Shown here one piece after another: positions 1,942-54,381 of a DNA stretch of 64,000 nt. How positions within the stretch are numbered: the stretch's first letter is position 1; every line of letters starts with the position of its first letter. The position numbers and the translations under genes were made by a program. Source of the stretch: Bacteroidota bacterium (GTDB taxonomy: Bacteria; Bacteroidota; Bacteroidia; UKL13-3); contig JAUXUD010000047.1 of assembly GCA_030680835.1 (NCBI GenBank), positions 1 to 64,000 on the forward strand. Direction: 5' to 3'. A model generated the notes under the pieces. That model had not been told where the DNA came from. It made no database searches and worked only from the letters and a program-made list of their open reading frames with translations.

Positions 1942-1950
1942 ATTAAAGAA

Positions 1951-2029
1951 GGTATGAATTATGAGGTATGAGTTATGAGGTATGAGAAAGTCAACTCATA
2001 ACTCATAACTCATAACTCATACCTTTTTT
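1951..2029. repeat. Heptamer repeat inverted pair, probable bidirectional terminator
   Basis: Five tandem copies of a 7-base unit (GGTATGA with variants GTTATGA and GGTATGA/ATTATGA) are followed after an 8-base loop by four complementary units (CTCATAA/CTCATAC) and then six T residues. The arms can pair into a hairpin of about 30 base pairs. It sits between the convergent ends of paaN and the Nudix gene, so a terminator role is likely. It belongs to the family also seen at 21442, 30600, 52552 and 54298. Confidence 0.8.
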
Positions 2030-8620: not shown

Positions 8621-8953
8621 GACCTTATTATTAAATTTGTTTAATCAACGCTACAAATTTTACAGCATGAGCAATGGAAACCCGTGAGCATACTTTTATG
8701 CTTATTATTGTTTGGGGCTTTAAACCGCTAATTCTATAAAGGGTAATAAAGATGATGTTTTAAGCAGTTCTTAAAACATTGTGTTTTAGATCATCCTTGT
8801 TTCTTACTGACAATATAAAAACGCTAAATGCAGTTATTATTGTATAATAGTAGTAAAAAAAAATGCTGCCAGTTATTTAACTGACAGCATTTTATATTTT
8901 GAAACAAGTATATTCTTACCGACATCCTTTAACCGATTGTCGTTAAGCTTGTC
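8621..8953. other. Intergenic region between gldN and second gldM
   Basis: No gene is visible in these 333 bases. The region contains the hairpin terminator at 8860-8893 and AT-rich DNA upstream of the second gldM. A partial -7-like element (AAAATTTG, about 8655-8662 on the - strand) is present, without a convincing partner 19 bases upstream. Confidence 0.5.
8860..8893 (-). terminator. Intrinsic terminator after gldN
   Basis: AAAATGCTG and CAGCATTTT arms with an inner CAGTT/AACTG stem form a near-perfect hairpin around an ATTT loop. Each inner junction has one unpaired base. On the - strand it is followed by a run of T. It lies 60 bases after the gldN stop codon and closes the gldKLMN operon before the second gldM. 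Confidence 0.8.
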
Positions 8954-13643: not shown

Positions 13644-14696
13644 TTACATAAACCTTGGTGTGTATATGGGTCTGATATAGCGTGGGCGGGGTGGAATCTT
13701 GATTCCAAAGCAATATCTGATCATTATTTCATGCGAGCCGGAGCTGTATTTTAAAATTTTGGAAGTGGTTAAATCATAGCTGTAACCTACGTTTAAACCA
13801 AATGGAAATTCATAACCCGCCAGAACTACTACGGCGTCCATAGGCCTCCAGGTTAGCCCTCCCCGGATGTTTTGGTTCCAGAGTAAAAAGCAGTTCAGAT
13901 CGGCCTGAATTTTAGCAGGGTCTTTTTTTATGAGAATATTCGGTTGCAAACGCATGGAGGGAATGGGTAGCTGATACTCTGCACCCGTCACTATATAAAA
14001 GTGCATTTTATTATCGATGGTAATAGAACCGGTTGGTTCAAACCACTCATAAGTAATTTTGCTTTGGTTAATATGCGTAACGGAAGCCCCCACATAAAAA
14101 TTCTCGAACAATCGACCCAGGCTGGGTAAAGTATAATATAAGCCAAAATCAATATCGTTTCCGGTACCCTGTACATTCCCTTTGGGTACTCTGGGATCCG
14201 CCTTGTCTAAGGCATTCAATTTACTTCCATCCAATCCTTTTTGCATCAATCCAAATGCTACCCCAATGCCCAGTACACTCTGATTGCTAAATGGCTGTCT
14301 GAAAGCCAATGAAAACTTAGGCATTACCGTTGTTTCAAATCCCAACTGATCTTTTGAAAAAGTTAAACCCACACCTATTCTGGACATAAATTTTTCCACA
14401 TTTGGCGAAAGGGCTGCATTTATTGAACCTACCAAATCAACCGGTGCATCACCCTGGTATAAATCTTTGTACAAAATCGGATCCTGCTGGGTATTTTTGC
14501 TGCTAAATCCCATCCACTGGGTGCGATGAAGCAGGGTAACACAAATTTTACCATCTGTAGCCCCGGCATAACCCGGATTAAAGGTAAGTTTGTTAAACAT
14601 AAACTGACTATAGTGTGGATCCTGCTGAGCCCATATTTTACTACCAACCAGAGAAAGTACGAAGAAGACAATAACCTGAGTAAAATTTCTATTCAT
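13644..14696 (-). CDS. PorP/SprF family T9SS membrane protein (copy 1)
   Basis: This 350-residue outer-membrane protein has a signal peptide ending near IWAQ, then the family hallmark at the mature N-terminus, QDPHYSQFMFNKL followed by NPGYAGA. PorP/SprF proteins are beta-barrels that work with the T9SS motor and periplasmic ring (PorP) or help secrete and anchor specific cargo (SprF). Genomes usually hold many paralogues. Its position immediately upstream of gldK, as porP is upstream of porK in Porphyromonas, favours the core PorP role for this copy, but sequence alone cannot settle it. Confidence 0.88.
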   Translation of the reverse strand: MNRNFTQVIVFFVLSLVGSKIWAQQDPHYSQFMFNKLTFNPGYAGATDGKICVTLLHRTQWMGFSSKNTQQDPILYKDLYQGDAPVDLVGSINAALSPNVEKFMSRIGVGLTFSKDQLGFETTVMPKFSLAFRQPFSNQSVLGIGVAFGLMQKGLDGSKLNALDKADPRVPKGNVQGTGNDIDFGLYYTLPSLGRLFENFYVGASVTHINQSKITYEWFEPTGSITIDNKMHFYIVTGAEYQLPIPSMRLQPNILIKKDPAKIQADLNCFLLWNQNIRGGLTWRPMDAVVVLAGYEFPFGLNVGYSYDLTTSKILKYSSGSHEIMIRYCFGIKIPPRPRYIRPIYTPRFM

Positions 14697-21434: not shown

Positions 21435-21441
21435 TTTTTTA

Positions 21442-21518
21442 GGTATGAGTTATGAGGTATGAGGTATGAGGTATGAGGTATGAGGTATGAGGTATGAGGT
21501 ATGAGTTATGAGTTATGA
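21442..21518. repeat. Eleven-unit heptamer array upstream of cyclophilin gene
   Basis: Eleven uninterrupted 7-base units (GGTATGA, with GTTATGA at the second and last two positions) fill the space between the kdsB stop region and the cyclophilin start codon. No complementary arm is present, unlike the arrays at 1951 and 54298, so it cannot form the same hairpin. On the transcribed (-) strand it reads as repeated CTCATAC in the 5' leader of the cyclophilin mRNA. Confidence 0.9.
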
Positions 21519-21578
21519 GTTTTTAGTTTTTAGTTTTATTTAGATGCAAGGTAGTATGTTTAGGCATTAAATCAACAA

Positions 21579-28858: not shown

Positions 28859-30055
28859 ATGAAAATTCTTCAGATATTTTCACGTTTTCCCTGGCCATTA
28901 AAAGATGGAGGGGCTCTTGCTTTTTATTCTTCATTAAATGGGTTCAAACAAAAGGGATATGAAATTACTGCGGCGGTTTTAAATACAAGCAAACACCATA
29001 TCGACTTTAAACTGTTGCCACAGCATGTTAAAAACCTGGCAAGTTACCATCTTTTTGAAATTGATAATTCCATACGTTTTCAGGGTGCTTTTTTGAATCT
29101 GTTTCAAAAAGATTCATATATCATCAGCCGGTTTTATCATCCTGAATTTGAAAAATTATTAATTAGCCTGGTTCAGAAAAACAATTATGATGCGATACTA
29201 TTTGAAAGTCTGCAAACTACTGTATATATTGATAAAGTAAAAGAACATACCCATGCTCCCTGCATATATAGAGCGCATAATATTGAGTACAAAATATGGG
29301 AAACGCAGTCACGTATTGAAAAGAATCTGGTTAAGAAAATTTATTTGAAATTACAGTCGGAAAGACTGGCACAATTTGAACAGAATACTGTTCTTAAATT
29401 TGATGCCATCCTCCCAATAACCCCGGCTGATAAAGTTTCTTTCAAGGAAATGGGAGTTCAAAAACCCATGCTGGTAATGCCCGCCGGAATTGATACCGAA
29501 ATATTTGCCCTGCATGAACCCAATAATACAGGACCGGTATTTCATATAGGTTCTATGGATTGGATGCCCAATCAGGAAGCCGTTCACTGGTTTTTAAAAG
29601 AAGTATGGCCTGATTTATTTAAGCAATTTCCAGATATTGAGTTTTATATTGCAGGCAGAAATATGCCTGAAGAATTTTTAAATATTGAAAAAGCCGGAGT
29701 AAAAGTAATTGGTGAAGTTAACAACGCCTATGATTTTATGCAACTTCAGGGCCTTATGGTGGTACCTTTGTTTTCGGGCAGTGGCATGCGTGTAAAAGTT
29801 GTTGAAGGGATGGCTATGGGAAAATGCATTGTTTCAACGGGATTTGGTATGGAAGGTATATTTGCCGAACCCGGTAAACATTATTATTTGGCCAATAATG
29901 CCAATGATTTTATTATTGCACTTACCCATTTAATATCAAACCCGGCAAAAGCGCAGCAAACCGGTGAAGAAGCCCGGAGATTTGCCTTTGAACATTTCAA
30001 TAATACCCAAATTATGGACCAGGTTATTGCATTTATCAAACAAATAAAAAAATGA
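28859..30055 (+). CDS. Family 4 glycosyltransferase
   Basis: The 398-residue GT-B fold glycosyltransferase of the GT4 type has an N-terminal acceptor-binding half opening with FSRFPWPLKDGGAL. Its C-terminal nucleotide-sugar half has the GSMDWMPN and PLFSGSGMRVKVVEGMAMG blocks. The Glu of the latter block is the donor-binding E of the EX7E motif. It probably builds a cell-surface glycan or glycolipid in the cytosol; donor and acceptor cannot be read from the sequence. It overlaps the DUF6913 gene by 4 bases. Confidence 0.85.
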   Translation: MKILQIFSRFPWPLKDGGALAFYSSLNGFKQKGYEITAAVLNTSKHHIDFKLLPQHVKNLASYHLFEIDNSIRFQGAFLNLFQKDSYIISRFYHPEFEKLLISLVQKNNYDAILFESLQTTVYIDKVKEHTHAPCIYRAHNIEYKIWETQSRIEKNLVKKIYLKLQSERLAQFEQNTVLKFDAILPITPADKVSFKEMGVQKPMLVMPAGIDTEIFALHEPNNTGPVFHIGSMDWMPNQEAVHWFLKEVWPDLFKQFPDIEFYIAGRNMPEEFLNIEKAGVKVIGEVNNAYDFMQLQGLMVVPLFSGSGMRVKVVEGMAMGKCIVSTGFGMEGIFAEPGKHYYLANNANDFIIALTHLISNPAKAQQTGEEARRFAFEHFNNTQIMDQVIAFIKQIKK

Positions 30056-30597
30056 GATTTATTGAAAATATAAAAAACAGATTGGGCAGGTATCTGTTGG
30101 ATAAAAACACGAAACTTAAATCACACCGGATACAACCCTCATTTGAACAGCTGCACGAAATTGGAATTGTATATAATGCCAATGAAAAAAACAATGAAGA
30201 AAAAATTAATCTGATTGCAAATTATCTGAGAGAACAGGGTAAAAAAGTATTTATGTTGGGTTATGTAAATTCCAAAACCCTGCCGGTTTCAAAGAAATTT
30301 CACATTACTTCCGAATATTTCTGGCGCGAAAAACTTACCGGATTTAACTTGCCTGATAAAATAAAAATAGGGCGTTTCCTTGAAACCCCCTTCGATCTTT
30401 TAATGAATATTTATTTTGAGGCCGATTTGCCCTTACAGGCTATTGGGGCTTACACCAAAGCCAAATACCGCATAGGCGCCCGGATTCCCAATGCCCTCAG
30501 CTTTAACGATACCCTCATTGATACCGCACAAAATAAAGACCTGCAGCATCTGGCTTCGCAAATGGTTTATTGTCTGAAAGCCGTTAATGTTAAATGA
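30052..30597 (+). CDS. DUF6913 family protein
   Basis: The 181-residue protein has no signal peptide or membrane segment and matches the Bacteroidota-specific DUF6913 family. It opens with a basic N-terminal helix, has the block IGIVYNANEKNNEEKINLI, and ends with a region around ADLPLQAIGAYTKAKYRIGA. Function is unknown. Family members often sit near dapA, but here dapA is 13 kb away. Its start overlaps the glycosyltransferase stop by 4 bases. The heptamer repeat region begins two bases after its stop codon. Confidence 0.65.
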   Translation: MRFIENIKNRLGRYLLDKNTKLKSHRIQPSFEQLHEIGIVYNANEKNNEEKINLIANYLREQGKKVFMLGYVNSKTLPVSKKFHITSEYFWREKLTGFNLPDKIKIGRFLETPFDLLMNIYFEADLPLQAIGAYTKAKYRIGARIPNALSFNDTLIDTAQNKDLQHLASQMVYCLKAVNVK

Positions 30598-30599
30598 TA

Positions 30600-30648
30600 G
30601 GTATGAGGAATGAGGTATGAGGTATGAGGTATGAGGTATGAGGTATGA
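30600..30648. repeat. Seven-unit heptamer array (left arm)
   Basis: Seven copies of GGTATGA (second copy GGAATGA) start directly after the DUF6913 stop codon. A complementary set of units lies at 30770-30800, so the two arms can pair around a 120-base interior that holds a different heptamer array. The location between convergent genes fits a terminator. Confidence 0.85.
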
Positions 30649-30691
30649 ATACAAATTAGAAAATAGAATTTTCGTATATTGTAAATCACCA

Positions 30692-30754
30692 TACATTGTA
30701 CATTGTACATTGTACATTGTACATTGTACATTGTACATCGTACATCGTAAATCG
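30692..30754. repeat. Nine-unit TACATTG heptamer array
   Basis: Six perfect copies of TACATTG are followed by two of TACATCG and one of TAAATCG, in exact 7-base register over 63 bases. The unit is unrelated to TATGAGG but has the same length, and it sits between the two arms of the TATGAGG-type inverted pair. Reading frames across it give a repeated seven-residue peptide and are not genes. Confidence 0.9.
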
Positions 30755-30769
30755 TCATAAGTAAATAAT

Positions 30770-30800
30770 ACTCATACCTAATACCTTATACCTCATACCT
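30770..30800. repeat. Heptamer array (right arm, inverted)
   Basis: About four units of CTCATAC / CTAATAC / CTTATAC / CTCATAC complement the array at 30600-30648. This arm lies 14 bases beyond the stop codon of the hydroxybutyryl-CoA dehydrogenase gene, whose transcript would run into it. Confidence 0.8.
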
Positions 30801-30813
30801 TGTTTTCGTACTT

Positions 30814-31698
30814 CTAAAACCTCGGACTTACCACCAATTCTTTATTACCGGGCGTGTACACATAAAACCCTTCACCCGATTTTACGCCTAGTATTCCGGC
30901 TGTAACCATATTCACCAATAATGGGCATGGCGCATATTTATCCTGACCCAAACCCTCGTATAATACATTCATGATGGCCATACATACATCGAGTCCGATG
31001 AAGTCGGCAAGCTGTAAGGGACCCATTGGATGAGCCGTTCCCAGCTTCATTACCGTGTCAACAGATTCTACCGATCCCACACCCTGTTGTATGCATAATA
31101 TGGCTTCGTTAATCATGGGCATTAATATACGGTTGGCAATAAAACCTGCATAATCCTTAGCCTCCGCTGGTACTTTGCCAATTGCTTTTGATAAATTCAC
31201 GATGGTCAGACTTACTTCCGGAGCTGTTTTAAAACCATTGATAATTTCAACGAGTTTCATTACCGGCACCGGATTCATAAAGTGCATTCCGATAACCTTT
31301 TCAGGTCGTTTGGTTACACTGGCAATTTTTGTAATTGAAATGGAGGAAGTGTTTGATGCCAGAATGCAATGTGCAGGCGTATATTCATCCAGTTGCTTAA
31401 AAATATCCAGTTTAATATTGATGTTTTCGCTGGCTGCTTCTATTACCAAATCAGCATTCGAACTGGCTTCTTTTAAATTTGTAAAGGTGGTAATATTGGC
31501 CAGCGTCCTAACTTTATCCTCCTCTTTAAGTGACCCTTTGGCTACTTGCCTGTCGAGGTTTTTACCAATTGTCTCAATTGCTTTTTTTAACTGTGTCTCA
31601 TTAACATCAATTAAATTTACTGTGTAATTGTTTTGTGCGAATACGTGGGCAATACCATTACCCATTGTTCCGGATCCTATAACCGTTATGTTCTTCAT
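30814..31698 (-). CDS. 3-hydroxybutyryl-CoA dehydrogenase
   Basis: The 294-residue enzyme of the 3-hydroxyacyl-CoA dehydrogenase family interconverts acetoacetyl-CoA and (S)-3-hydroxybutyryl-CoA with NAD(P). The dinucleotide-binding GSGTMGNGIAH motif starts the protein. The catalytic His lies in GMHFMNPVPVM, with the partner Glu in the VEII that follows, and the C-terminal domain has HPMGPLQLADFIGLD. A longer frame to 31773 lacks support; the ATG at 31698 starts directly at the Rossmann fold. Function in beta-oxidation or butyrate metabolism is likely. It is not the R-specific PhaB of polyhydroxybutyrate synthesis. Confidence 0.9.
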   Translation of the reverse strand: MKNITVIGSGTMGNGIAHVFAQNNYTVNLIDVNETQLKKAIETIGKNLDRQVAKGSLKEEDKVRTLANITTFTNLKEASSNADLVIEAASENINIKLDIFKQLDEYTPAHCILASNTSSISITKIASVTKRPEKVIGMHFMNPVPVMKLVEIINGFKTAPEVSLTIVNLSKAIGKVPAEAKDYAGFIANRILMPMINEAILCIQQGVGSVESVDTVMKLGTAHPMGPLQLADFIGLDVCMAIMNVLYEGLGQDKYAPCPLLVNMVTAGILGVKSGEGFYVYTPGNKELVVSPRF

Positions 31699-31799
31699 TT
31701 TGTTAAAATTTGCAGGGCAAATGTATAAAACCCATTGACATAAAAAAGTTGATTTCAATATCAATTTGTTCACAATTAAACTTTATGTTTGATTCCGGT

Positions 31800-52551: not shown

Positions 52552-52621
52552 TCATACCTAATAACTCACACCTAATACCTAATAACTCATACCTAATACC
52601 TAATAACTCATACCTAATACC
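52552..52621. repeat. Ten-unit heptamer array abutting a start codon
   Basis: Ten 7-base units run in register: TCATACC, TAATAAC, TCACACC, TAATACC, TAATAAC, TCATACC, TAATACC, TAATAAC, TCATACC, TAATACC. The last seven or so show a 21-base higher-order period. The array ends three bases before the ATG of the PolX-like gene at 52625, so it fills that gene's 5' leader. No complementary arm is present. Confidence 0.9.
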
Positions 52622-52624
52622 TCC

Positions 52625-54295
52625 ATGACCAATTCCGATATAGCTGATATCTTAAAATTATATGCCGATTTAAGCGAGCTGCATGATGGCAATCCCTTTA
52701 AAATAAAATCGTTTGCCGCTGCTTCTTTTCGCATAGATAAAATGCCTGAACCTCTTGCCGGTAAAAACATTGAGGAACTTGAAAATACAGAAGGAATCGG
52801 AAAAAGTATTGCAGCAAAAATTATAGAGATCAATACGCGTGAATCGTTTAAAGAACTGGATGAATTGCTTGAAGCCACTCCGGTTGGAGTGCGCGAAATG
52901 ATGAAGGTGAAAGGCATTGGTCCGAAAAAAATTGCCATGATCTGGAAAGAAATGGGAGTTGAAAATATTGGCGAACTGCTTTATGCCTGCAAAGAAAACA
53001 GGCTGGCTCAGGCCAAAGGATTTGGATTAAAAACCCAGGAAAATGTATTGAAGCAAATTGAATTTATGTTTGTAAGCGCAAACAAATTTCATTATGCAAA
53101 AGCGTTAGATCCTGCCTTGAACCTGCTCGACATACTGAAACAAACCGAAGAGATTCATAACGCTTCCTTCAGCGGTGAAATCAGGCGAAAAATGGAGATA
53201 TTGGAAGTTATAGAATTATTAATCAGCTGTTCGGATTTGAACGCGGTTCAGCAAAAAATTATTGAGCATGAAATATTAACAGATATTAAAACGGATGATG
53301 CAGGCATGCGTGGAAAATATGAAGCCTATCCCGTTAAAATTTCATTCACAAACGAAGCATCCTATTCAACAGAATTGTTTAAGCAAACAGGCTCCCTGAC
53401 ACATGTAAATAAAGTATTTTTTAAAATCGGTTCAACCCAAAATAACTTTACAAGCGAAGCAGAACTATACCGGGCTGCAAAGCTCGGTTATATTGAACCC
53501 GAAATGCGCGAATCGAGGGGTGAAATTGAAAAAGCTGCAAACGGAACCTTGCCTAAACTAATTGAATTTACTGACCTTACCGGTCCGCTGCACAACCACA
53601 GTACCTGGAGCGACGGACTCAATACCATTGCAGAACTGGCTCAATACTGCAAAGAAAAAGGGTATCAGTATCTGGGTATGGCTGACCATTCCAAATCGGC
53701 TTTTTATGCCCATGGACTGAGTGAAGAAAAAGTGTTGGTACAACAAAAGGAAATTGCAGCTTTAAATGAAAAAATGGGACCGGATTTTAAAATATTTGCG
53801 GGCATTGAAAGTGATATTTTATATGATGGCAGCCTCGATTATGAAAATGACATTTTAAACACTTTTGACTATGTGGTTGCCTCAGTTCACAGTGTATTAA
53901 AAATGGCAGAAGATAAAGCCATGAGTCGCTTGATCAGAGCCATTGAAAATCCATATACTACGATATTGGGACATCCCACAGGAAGATTGTTATTAATGCG
54001 CGAAGGTTATCCCATTAACCACCATAAAATTATTGATGCATGCGCAGCAAATGGAGTTATTATTGAAATTAACGCCAACCCCTATCGTTTGGATCTGGAC
54101 TGGCGTTATATTGATTATGCCTTAAAAAAGAATGTAAAACTAAGTATCAATCCCGATGCACATGAAATTGCCGGTTTTTATGATATGTTTTATGGTGTTG
54201 AAGTAGCACGTAAAGGCGGGTTAAGCAAAGGCATGTGTTTAAATACAATGAGCCTTGCTGAGTTGGATCAGTACTTTAAAAACAGGAAACCTTAA
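52625..54295 (+). CDS. PolX-type protein with PHP domain and degenerate polymerase domain
   Basis: The 556-residue protein has a helix-hairpin-helix N-terminal region (about residues 1-145, with GIGKSIAAKI and GIGPKKIAMI), a polymerase-beta-like middle and a C-terminal PHP phosphoesterase (about 318-556) with LHNHSTWSDG, ADHSKS, GIESDIL and ASVHS. The PHP metal ligands look complete, so 3'-5' exonuclease or endonuclease activity is plausible. In the polymerase palm (about residues 182-200) the GDxD catalytic aspartates are replaced (EVIELL), so polymerisation is unlikely. This form occurs in Bacteroidota. It probably acts in DNA repair. Confidence 0.85.
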   Translation: MTNSDIADILKLYADLSELHDGNPFKIKSFAAASFRIDKMPEPLAGKNIEELENTEGIGKSIAAKIIEINTRESFKELDELLEATPVGVREMMKVKGIGPKKIAMIWKEMGVENIGELLYACKENRLAQAKGFGLKTQENVLKQIEFMFVSANKFHYAKALDPALNLLDILKQTEEIHNASFSGEIRRKMEILEVIELLISCSDLNAVQQKIIEHEILTDIKTDDAGMRGKYEAYPVKISFTNEASYSTELFKQTGSLTHVNKVFFKIGSTQNNFTSEAELYRAAKLGYIEPEMRESRGEIEKAANGTLPKLIEFTDLTGPLHNHSTWSDGLNTIAELAQYCKEKGYQYLGMADHSKSAFYAHGLSEEKVLVQQKEIAALNEKMGPDFKIFAGIESDILYDGSLDYENDILNTFDYVVASVHSVLKMAEDKAMSRLIRAIENPYTTILGHPTGRLLLMREGYPINHHKIIDACAANGVIIEINANPYRLDLDWRYIDYALKKNVKLSINPDAHEIAGFYDMFYGVEVARKGGLSKGMCLNTMSLAELDQYFKNRKP

Positions 54296-54297
54296 TT

Positions 54298-54381
54298 TGA
54301 GGTATGAGGTATGAGTTATTAGGTATGAGCAAAAATATATTTACTTATACCTCATACCTTATACCTCATACCTCATACCTT
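54298..54381. repeat. Heptamer repeat inverted pair between convergent genes
   Basis: About four units of TGAGGTA type (54298-54329) face five complementary units (54346-54381) across an AT-rich loop of about 16 bases. The pair lies between the stop codons of the PolX-like gene and phaC and probably acts as a terminator in both directions. It is the same family as 1951-2029. Confidence 0.85.

Follow-up and report, generated by a model that had tools for sequence, protein, structure and literature searches.

Between positions 30599 and 30801 of the window (the whole 64,000-nucleotide stretch analysed, from a genome of 4.30 Mb in 104 contigs), the spacer of two convergent genes is mostly filled by three heptamer arrays. 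These probably belong to a single family of dispersed intergenic heptanucleotide repeats, specific to the lineage, whose members are copied to the ends of genes and change size by slippage, with the array-bearing tails of two genes meeting at this site. The arrays and their neighbours are as follows.

30052..30597, + strand: DUF6913 protein gene (PF21857), left neighbour
30599..30648, + strand: array A, about seven GTATGAG (TATGAGG) units, first base 1 bp past the DUF6913 stop, sense to the DUF6913 gene
30692..30754, - strand: array B, nine units, sense to the dehydrogenase gene
30766..30801, - strand: degenerate array A (GTATGAG, GTATAAG, GTATTAG, GTATGAG), behind the dehydrogenase stop and sense to the dehydrogenase gene
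30814..31773, - strand: 3-hydroxyacyl-CoA dehydrogenase gene (PF02737 + PF00725), right, convergent neighbour; its GTG start as listed may lie too far upstream

Structure and setting of the spacer

Using TRF, array A has been identified as AGGTATG at 30599-30648 (7.1 copies, 95% match). Array B reads on the + strand as six TACATTG units (30692-30733), two TACATCG (30734-30747) and one TAAATCG (30748-30754), and on the - strand as GATTTAC-GATGTAC-GATGTACAATGTACAATG... Both the coordinates and the 6-2-1 gradient of these nine units are exactly as the original prediction gave them, and array B is indeed flanked by an inverted pair, A at 30599-30648 and, at about 30766-30801, a degenerate inverted copy of it. 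The description of the TACATTG array as nested within the other is not borne out: arrays begin about 10 bp past stops in a fixed sense orientation, so that the tails of two convergent genes meet here, DUF6913 followed by A, and the dehydrogenase followed by A and then B. Given this strand rule, facing, inverted arrays arise automatically wherever such genes converge. The strong stem-loop predicted at the locus (z -10.3) likewise results from two gene tails with inverted arrays facing each other.

Many relatives have, 0-28 bp past the DUF6913 gene, a second gene on the same strand, encoding about 200 aa, which we read from its sequence as a putative QueE; the match to this gene in the present genome lies on contig C12. 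In the closest congener by DUF6913 protein (G018, 75% identity, matching JACMQU01, 'Bacteroidia bacterium LF-bin-458'), a different convergent gene follows DUF6913 across a heptamer-free spacer of 45 bp; directly past the DUF6913 gene there (L082/L111), a 9-base repeat, AAAGTTAAT, is present in about three copies. Since the order DUF6913-QueE of the relatives is broken here, with another gene again in the closest congener, the junction occupied by the array is specific to the lineage. Around QueE in this genome, 3.6 kb contain no array, so that rearrangement of gene order driven by the arrays is only a suggestion, as it also is for Gramella in the work of MacGregor (PMC4679880).

Dispersal, orientation and period

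In 1.23 Mb of the genome, arrays of A or B number 83, only 3 of them inside called genes; the gene calls come from a simple ORF method, and arrays sharing a spacer are not independent. Most (59 of 83) have a facing stop codon no more than 60 bp away, the median distance of these being about 10 bp. Among them, the coding-strand form of A is GTATGAG in 26 of 30 cases (26:4, p=6e-5), and that of B is GTACGAT or GTACAAT in 27 of 29 (27:2, p=2e-6). Over the same 1.23 Mb, convergent spacers are enriched in arrays (odds ratio 5.0, p=1e-9) and divergent spacers are depleted of them (odds ratio 0.10, p=1e-5). Replication strand was rejected as the cause of the orientation, as the facing A arrays of a single spacer each lie in sense to the gene they follow. 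Four further places in the window illustrate the rule and its exceptions.

1950..2021: facing A arrays, without B, in a second convergent spacer
54298..54380: facing A arrays, without B, in a third convergent spacer
21441..21519, + strand: long A array of 11 units, an exception to the sense rule, antisense and 58 bp from the nearest facing stop
52554..52622, - strand: A array with periods of 7 and 21 bases, between divergent genes, where arrays are otherwise rare

The gene at 52625-54295, with helix-hairpin-helix and PHP domains in a DNA polymerase X-like layout, has heptamer arrays at both ends, one being the divergent-spacer array just listed.

Seven is the dominant period in this genome. 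Arrays of at least 3 perfect copies in 584 kb of the genome number 19 at period 7, against 1, 2, 0 and 0 at periods 5, 6, 8 and 9, and an order-2 Markov copy of 0.58 Mb has no such period-7 array. The best TRF rows in 1.06 Mb fall at periods 7 (32), 14 (20) and 21 (11), with one each at 6 and 8; an order-3 Markov copy of the same length gave no period-7 TRF array, against 47 period-7 rows in the real sequence. (The statistics on this genome cover 1.06-1.23 of its 4.30 Mb.) Intergenic arrays in 29 related genomes, sampled over 1.55 Mb, show 17, 18 and 9 at periods 7, 14 and 21 and 0, 0, 1 and 2 at periods 5, 6, 8 and 9, though unevenly spread, a few genomes holding most of them. Their units differ: AAAACCC, AGCTTCT and ACCAAAG in G014; AGTAATC/AGTAGTC and TACATCG in G021; AATTACG in G004; and GTTTCGA, AGTTGGC and ACCCAAA in G047. 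Across 395 genomes of the class an exact A trimer occurs in 1 and an exact B trimer in 3. Period 7 is thus strongly over-represented against 5, 6, 8 and 9, and the lack of any excess at 7 bases, named in the original prediction as the outcome that would tell against it, was not found. That interpretation is therefore half right: the precedence of unit length over sequence holds in general, period 7 going with other units in relatives, but the local argument for it, from unrelated units, nesting and growth at the left, does not. A preference for 7 whatever the sequence had already been put forward by Mrazek et al. 2007 (as reported in PMC4679880 and PMC4692102).

Several repeats were seen in passing. 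Contig C15 carries a rare non-7 array at 89830-89890 (period 8, GAGGGTAG, 7.6 copies), and stretches of GGGTAGGAGTGTAGGAG, similar to that unit, come after some A arrays. One short contig of G018 (L118) has long heptamer arrays at 8704-8858 and 13741-13894, with units CATCTCC and GTACATC/ATCAATC, and 120 kb of G014 (L127 and other loci) contain TTCGGTTTGAACCAAA 15 times. On contig C66 (L048) of the present genome, ATTTCTACTATTGTAGAT recurs sixteen times at regular spacing from 14701 onwards, presumably a Cas12a-type CRISPR repeat array, to judge from the repeat alone.

Relationship and spread of the units

The two units had been taken as unrelated. In the sense form found behind stops, A is GTATGAG and B is GTACGAT or GTACAAT, and GTATGAG and GTACGAT are identical at 5 of 7 positions, two substitutions apart. 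A bridge unit, GTATGAT, one step from each, occurs 17 times within arrays, and an array on contig C60 passes unbroken from GTACGAT through GTATGAT to GTATGAG; on contig C44, ACGAGTT, ACGAATT, ACGATTT and ACGATGT follow in succession. Descent of A and B from a common unit is well supported by these sequences rather than proven, because the C60 array is the only clear A-B hybrid and because A and B at 30599-30801 are out of phase, offset by 6. Same-strand A/B pairs within 42 bp number only three, two of them in phase, too few to weigh. Substitutions alter the unit and not its length, and so descent alone explains the period common to A and B at this locus, with no need of a length-fixing process.

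The unit gradient in array B had been read as growth at the left end. Of 34 B arrays, 14 have a TTACGAT-like unit ahead of their first perfect unit, towards the stop, and 0 have one after the last, on the far side (p=2e-5); the decayed unit of the array at 30692-30754 is one instance of this recurrent boundary, hence no record of local growth. Independent decay would not yield one variant at 14 places, which points to a boundary shared by copied arrays or to a shared seed. The phases at which arrays start and end are non-random for the B start, the B end and the A end but not for the A start. This holds in a flank-matched simulation, the analysis having been rerun against simulated flanks since the raw end-phase result was partly due to A/T-rich flanks; the arrays are partly non-independent, some having a palindromic neighbour in common. 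The boundary unit common to 14 of 34 B arrays and the end phases that stay non-random after the flank-matched control favour copying over independent birth, while runs of one variant within arrays (GAAAAAA here) fit local expansion and support resizing in place.

Short pieces of array may accordingly be pictured as copied to new gene ends, retaining their orientation and often the stop-proximal boundary unit, for example by template switching or by gene conversion, at short homologies and with existing arrays as the source. Each copy would then grow or shrink by whole units through replication slippage. Length would be inherited while sequence drifts, substitutions changing the unit; with slippage in whole units, the period would stay 7 as units mutate. 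Selection may leave arrays where they are least harmful, past the ends of genes and outside coding sequence and divergent promoters. A bias towards the sense strand is not expected from plain slippage, which counts against slippage as a full account, and the rule hints at a part played by the transcribed strand as well. A phage origin was rejected, exact trimers turning up, over 2.9 million contigs, in no more than 2 viral-contig stretches for B and 7 for A.

The position directly past stops and the strong sense orientation in two unit forms could also be those of a functional 3'-UTR or transcript-end element, the sense array being selected as a signal (transcript protection, pausing or a protein-binding platform) and 7 being the spacing of binding sites. 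B in G021, a member of another genus, has the same orientation as in this genome, and of 26 arrays with other units that lie within 100 bp behind a stop in relatives, 20 are richer in G than in C on the coding strand (p=0.009), both of which would suit such an element. The majority of gene ends, however, have no array, and array number and unit vary freely; exact A and B units are absent from 18 congeners. Facing A arrays are predicted to fold strongly. Intrinsic terminators (G+C hairpin followed by a T run) are no rarer at array-bearing gene ends, their frequency there not being significantly different, and no Rfam family scores above its gathering threshold, the matches lying far below. We consider a signalling role rather unlikely as the explanation of the arrays. 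A copying process tied to transcription, writing G-skewed heptamers behind stops on the coding strand in machinery-set 7-base steps from a template that differs between species, would be a very improbable alternative.

Mobilization by a transposase, the heptamer array being part of a REP-kind repeat, would account for the REP-like palindromes CCGATAGCTATCGG, GCCTGCCGTAACTTTAGTGAAGGC and CCCTTCGACAAGCTCAGG that recur beside arrays, for the non-random end phases, and for the flank GGCGTCAGC common to several G021 arrays. (Palindromes neighbour arrays at, for example, C15 9960 and 119693, C30 113489 and C77, and CCGATAGCTATCGGGA is repeated in G021 too.) It is nonetheless improbable: no flank is common to most arrays in this genome, array length varies with decay at one end, and matches to Y1 transposases number 3 here against 15 in G022, 80 kb of which showed no 7 or 14 base array. 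Nor do Y1 transposases track the arrays: most relatives have them, both where arrays were seen and where they were not. Independent local births, in which each array springs from a local seed and the replication machinery favours 7-base slips (as the original prediction and Mrazek et al. would have it), draw on the many different units at period 7 across the class and on period 7 in other phyla (PMC4679880, PMC4692102). Separate seeds would give differing units from site to site, whereas the great majority of arrays here draw on one connected unit set, obey the same orientation rule and have a boundary unit in common. We give independent births little credence overall; they are hard to hold for A and B here, but may underlie the preference for 7 seen across the class. 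A single copied and resized family remains the reading that we prefer.

Comparison with known repeats

REP/BIME repeats are intergenic, lie behind genes, often as facing pairs, and have a defined palindromic core. The present arrays share that placement but are head-to-tail 7-base repeats of variable length with no such core, and the class fits them poorly, since most arrays share no flank and Y1 transposases do not track them. With head-to-tail 7-base copies beyond chance, in many dispersed, mainly intergenic arrays, they are instead heptanucleotide SSRs of the LSSR type. Of such long simple sequence repeats, heptanucleotides are the most abundant, unit length being constant and sequence not, and a contact of the polymerase has been proposed to underlie them (Mrazek et al. 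2007, as presented in PMC4679880 and PMC4692102). As so presented, the LSSRs are a statistical class, to which strand rule, unit drift and gene-tail position are added here.

Closest in arrangement are the GGGAATC / GGGGA(C/T)T heptamers of Xanthomonas and Nostoc, of which 89-186 dispersed, mainly intergenic arrays of no known function occur per genome, close to the upstream gene, preferentially downstream on the coding strand, with few between divergent genes and with 70-75 facing inverted pairs in Xanthomonas (Rehm et al. 2015, PMC4692102). The arrays described here resemble them in dispersal, intergenic location, side and strand preference, divergent depletion and facing pairs, so that this kind of object is already known. 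The Xanthomonas and Nostoc repeats differ in phylum and unit and form G-quadruplexes; GTATGAG and GTACGAT lack the G runs needed (3-4, in GGGNATC or GGGGA(C/T)T), which rules out that class, and the drift series from unit to unit and the shared boundary unit are shown here. The TAACTGA direct repeats of marine Beggiatoaceae, cyanobacteria and five Bacteroidetes (MacGregor 2015, PMC4679880) are likewise dispersed intergenic heptamers with an orientation rule, but lie mostly just upstream of start codons, in forward orientation, and rarely have single-base variants as repeats; the units here are other, such variants are common and the arrays lie just behind stops, so this class too has been ruled out. 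Spacers in Gramella and Elizabethkingia hold mixed heptamer assemblages, and a tie to rearranged gene order has been suggested (PMC4679880). The STRR heptanucleotide repeats of heterocystous cyanobacteria (Calothrix) also comprise several heptamers per genome (PMC4692102), and are set apart, by description, by their units and phylum.

The present repeats are therefore best read as adding to a kind known from Xanthomonas, Nostoc, Beggiatoaceae and some Bacteroidetes. They place the puzzle of the 7-base preference in long bacterial simple repeats in a group with different units and the same period, add a strand rule that goes beyond plain slippage, and let one heptamer be seen drifting into another within an array, so that a length inherited by descent becomes separable from a length imposed by a machine.
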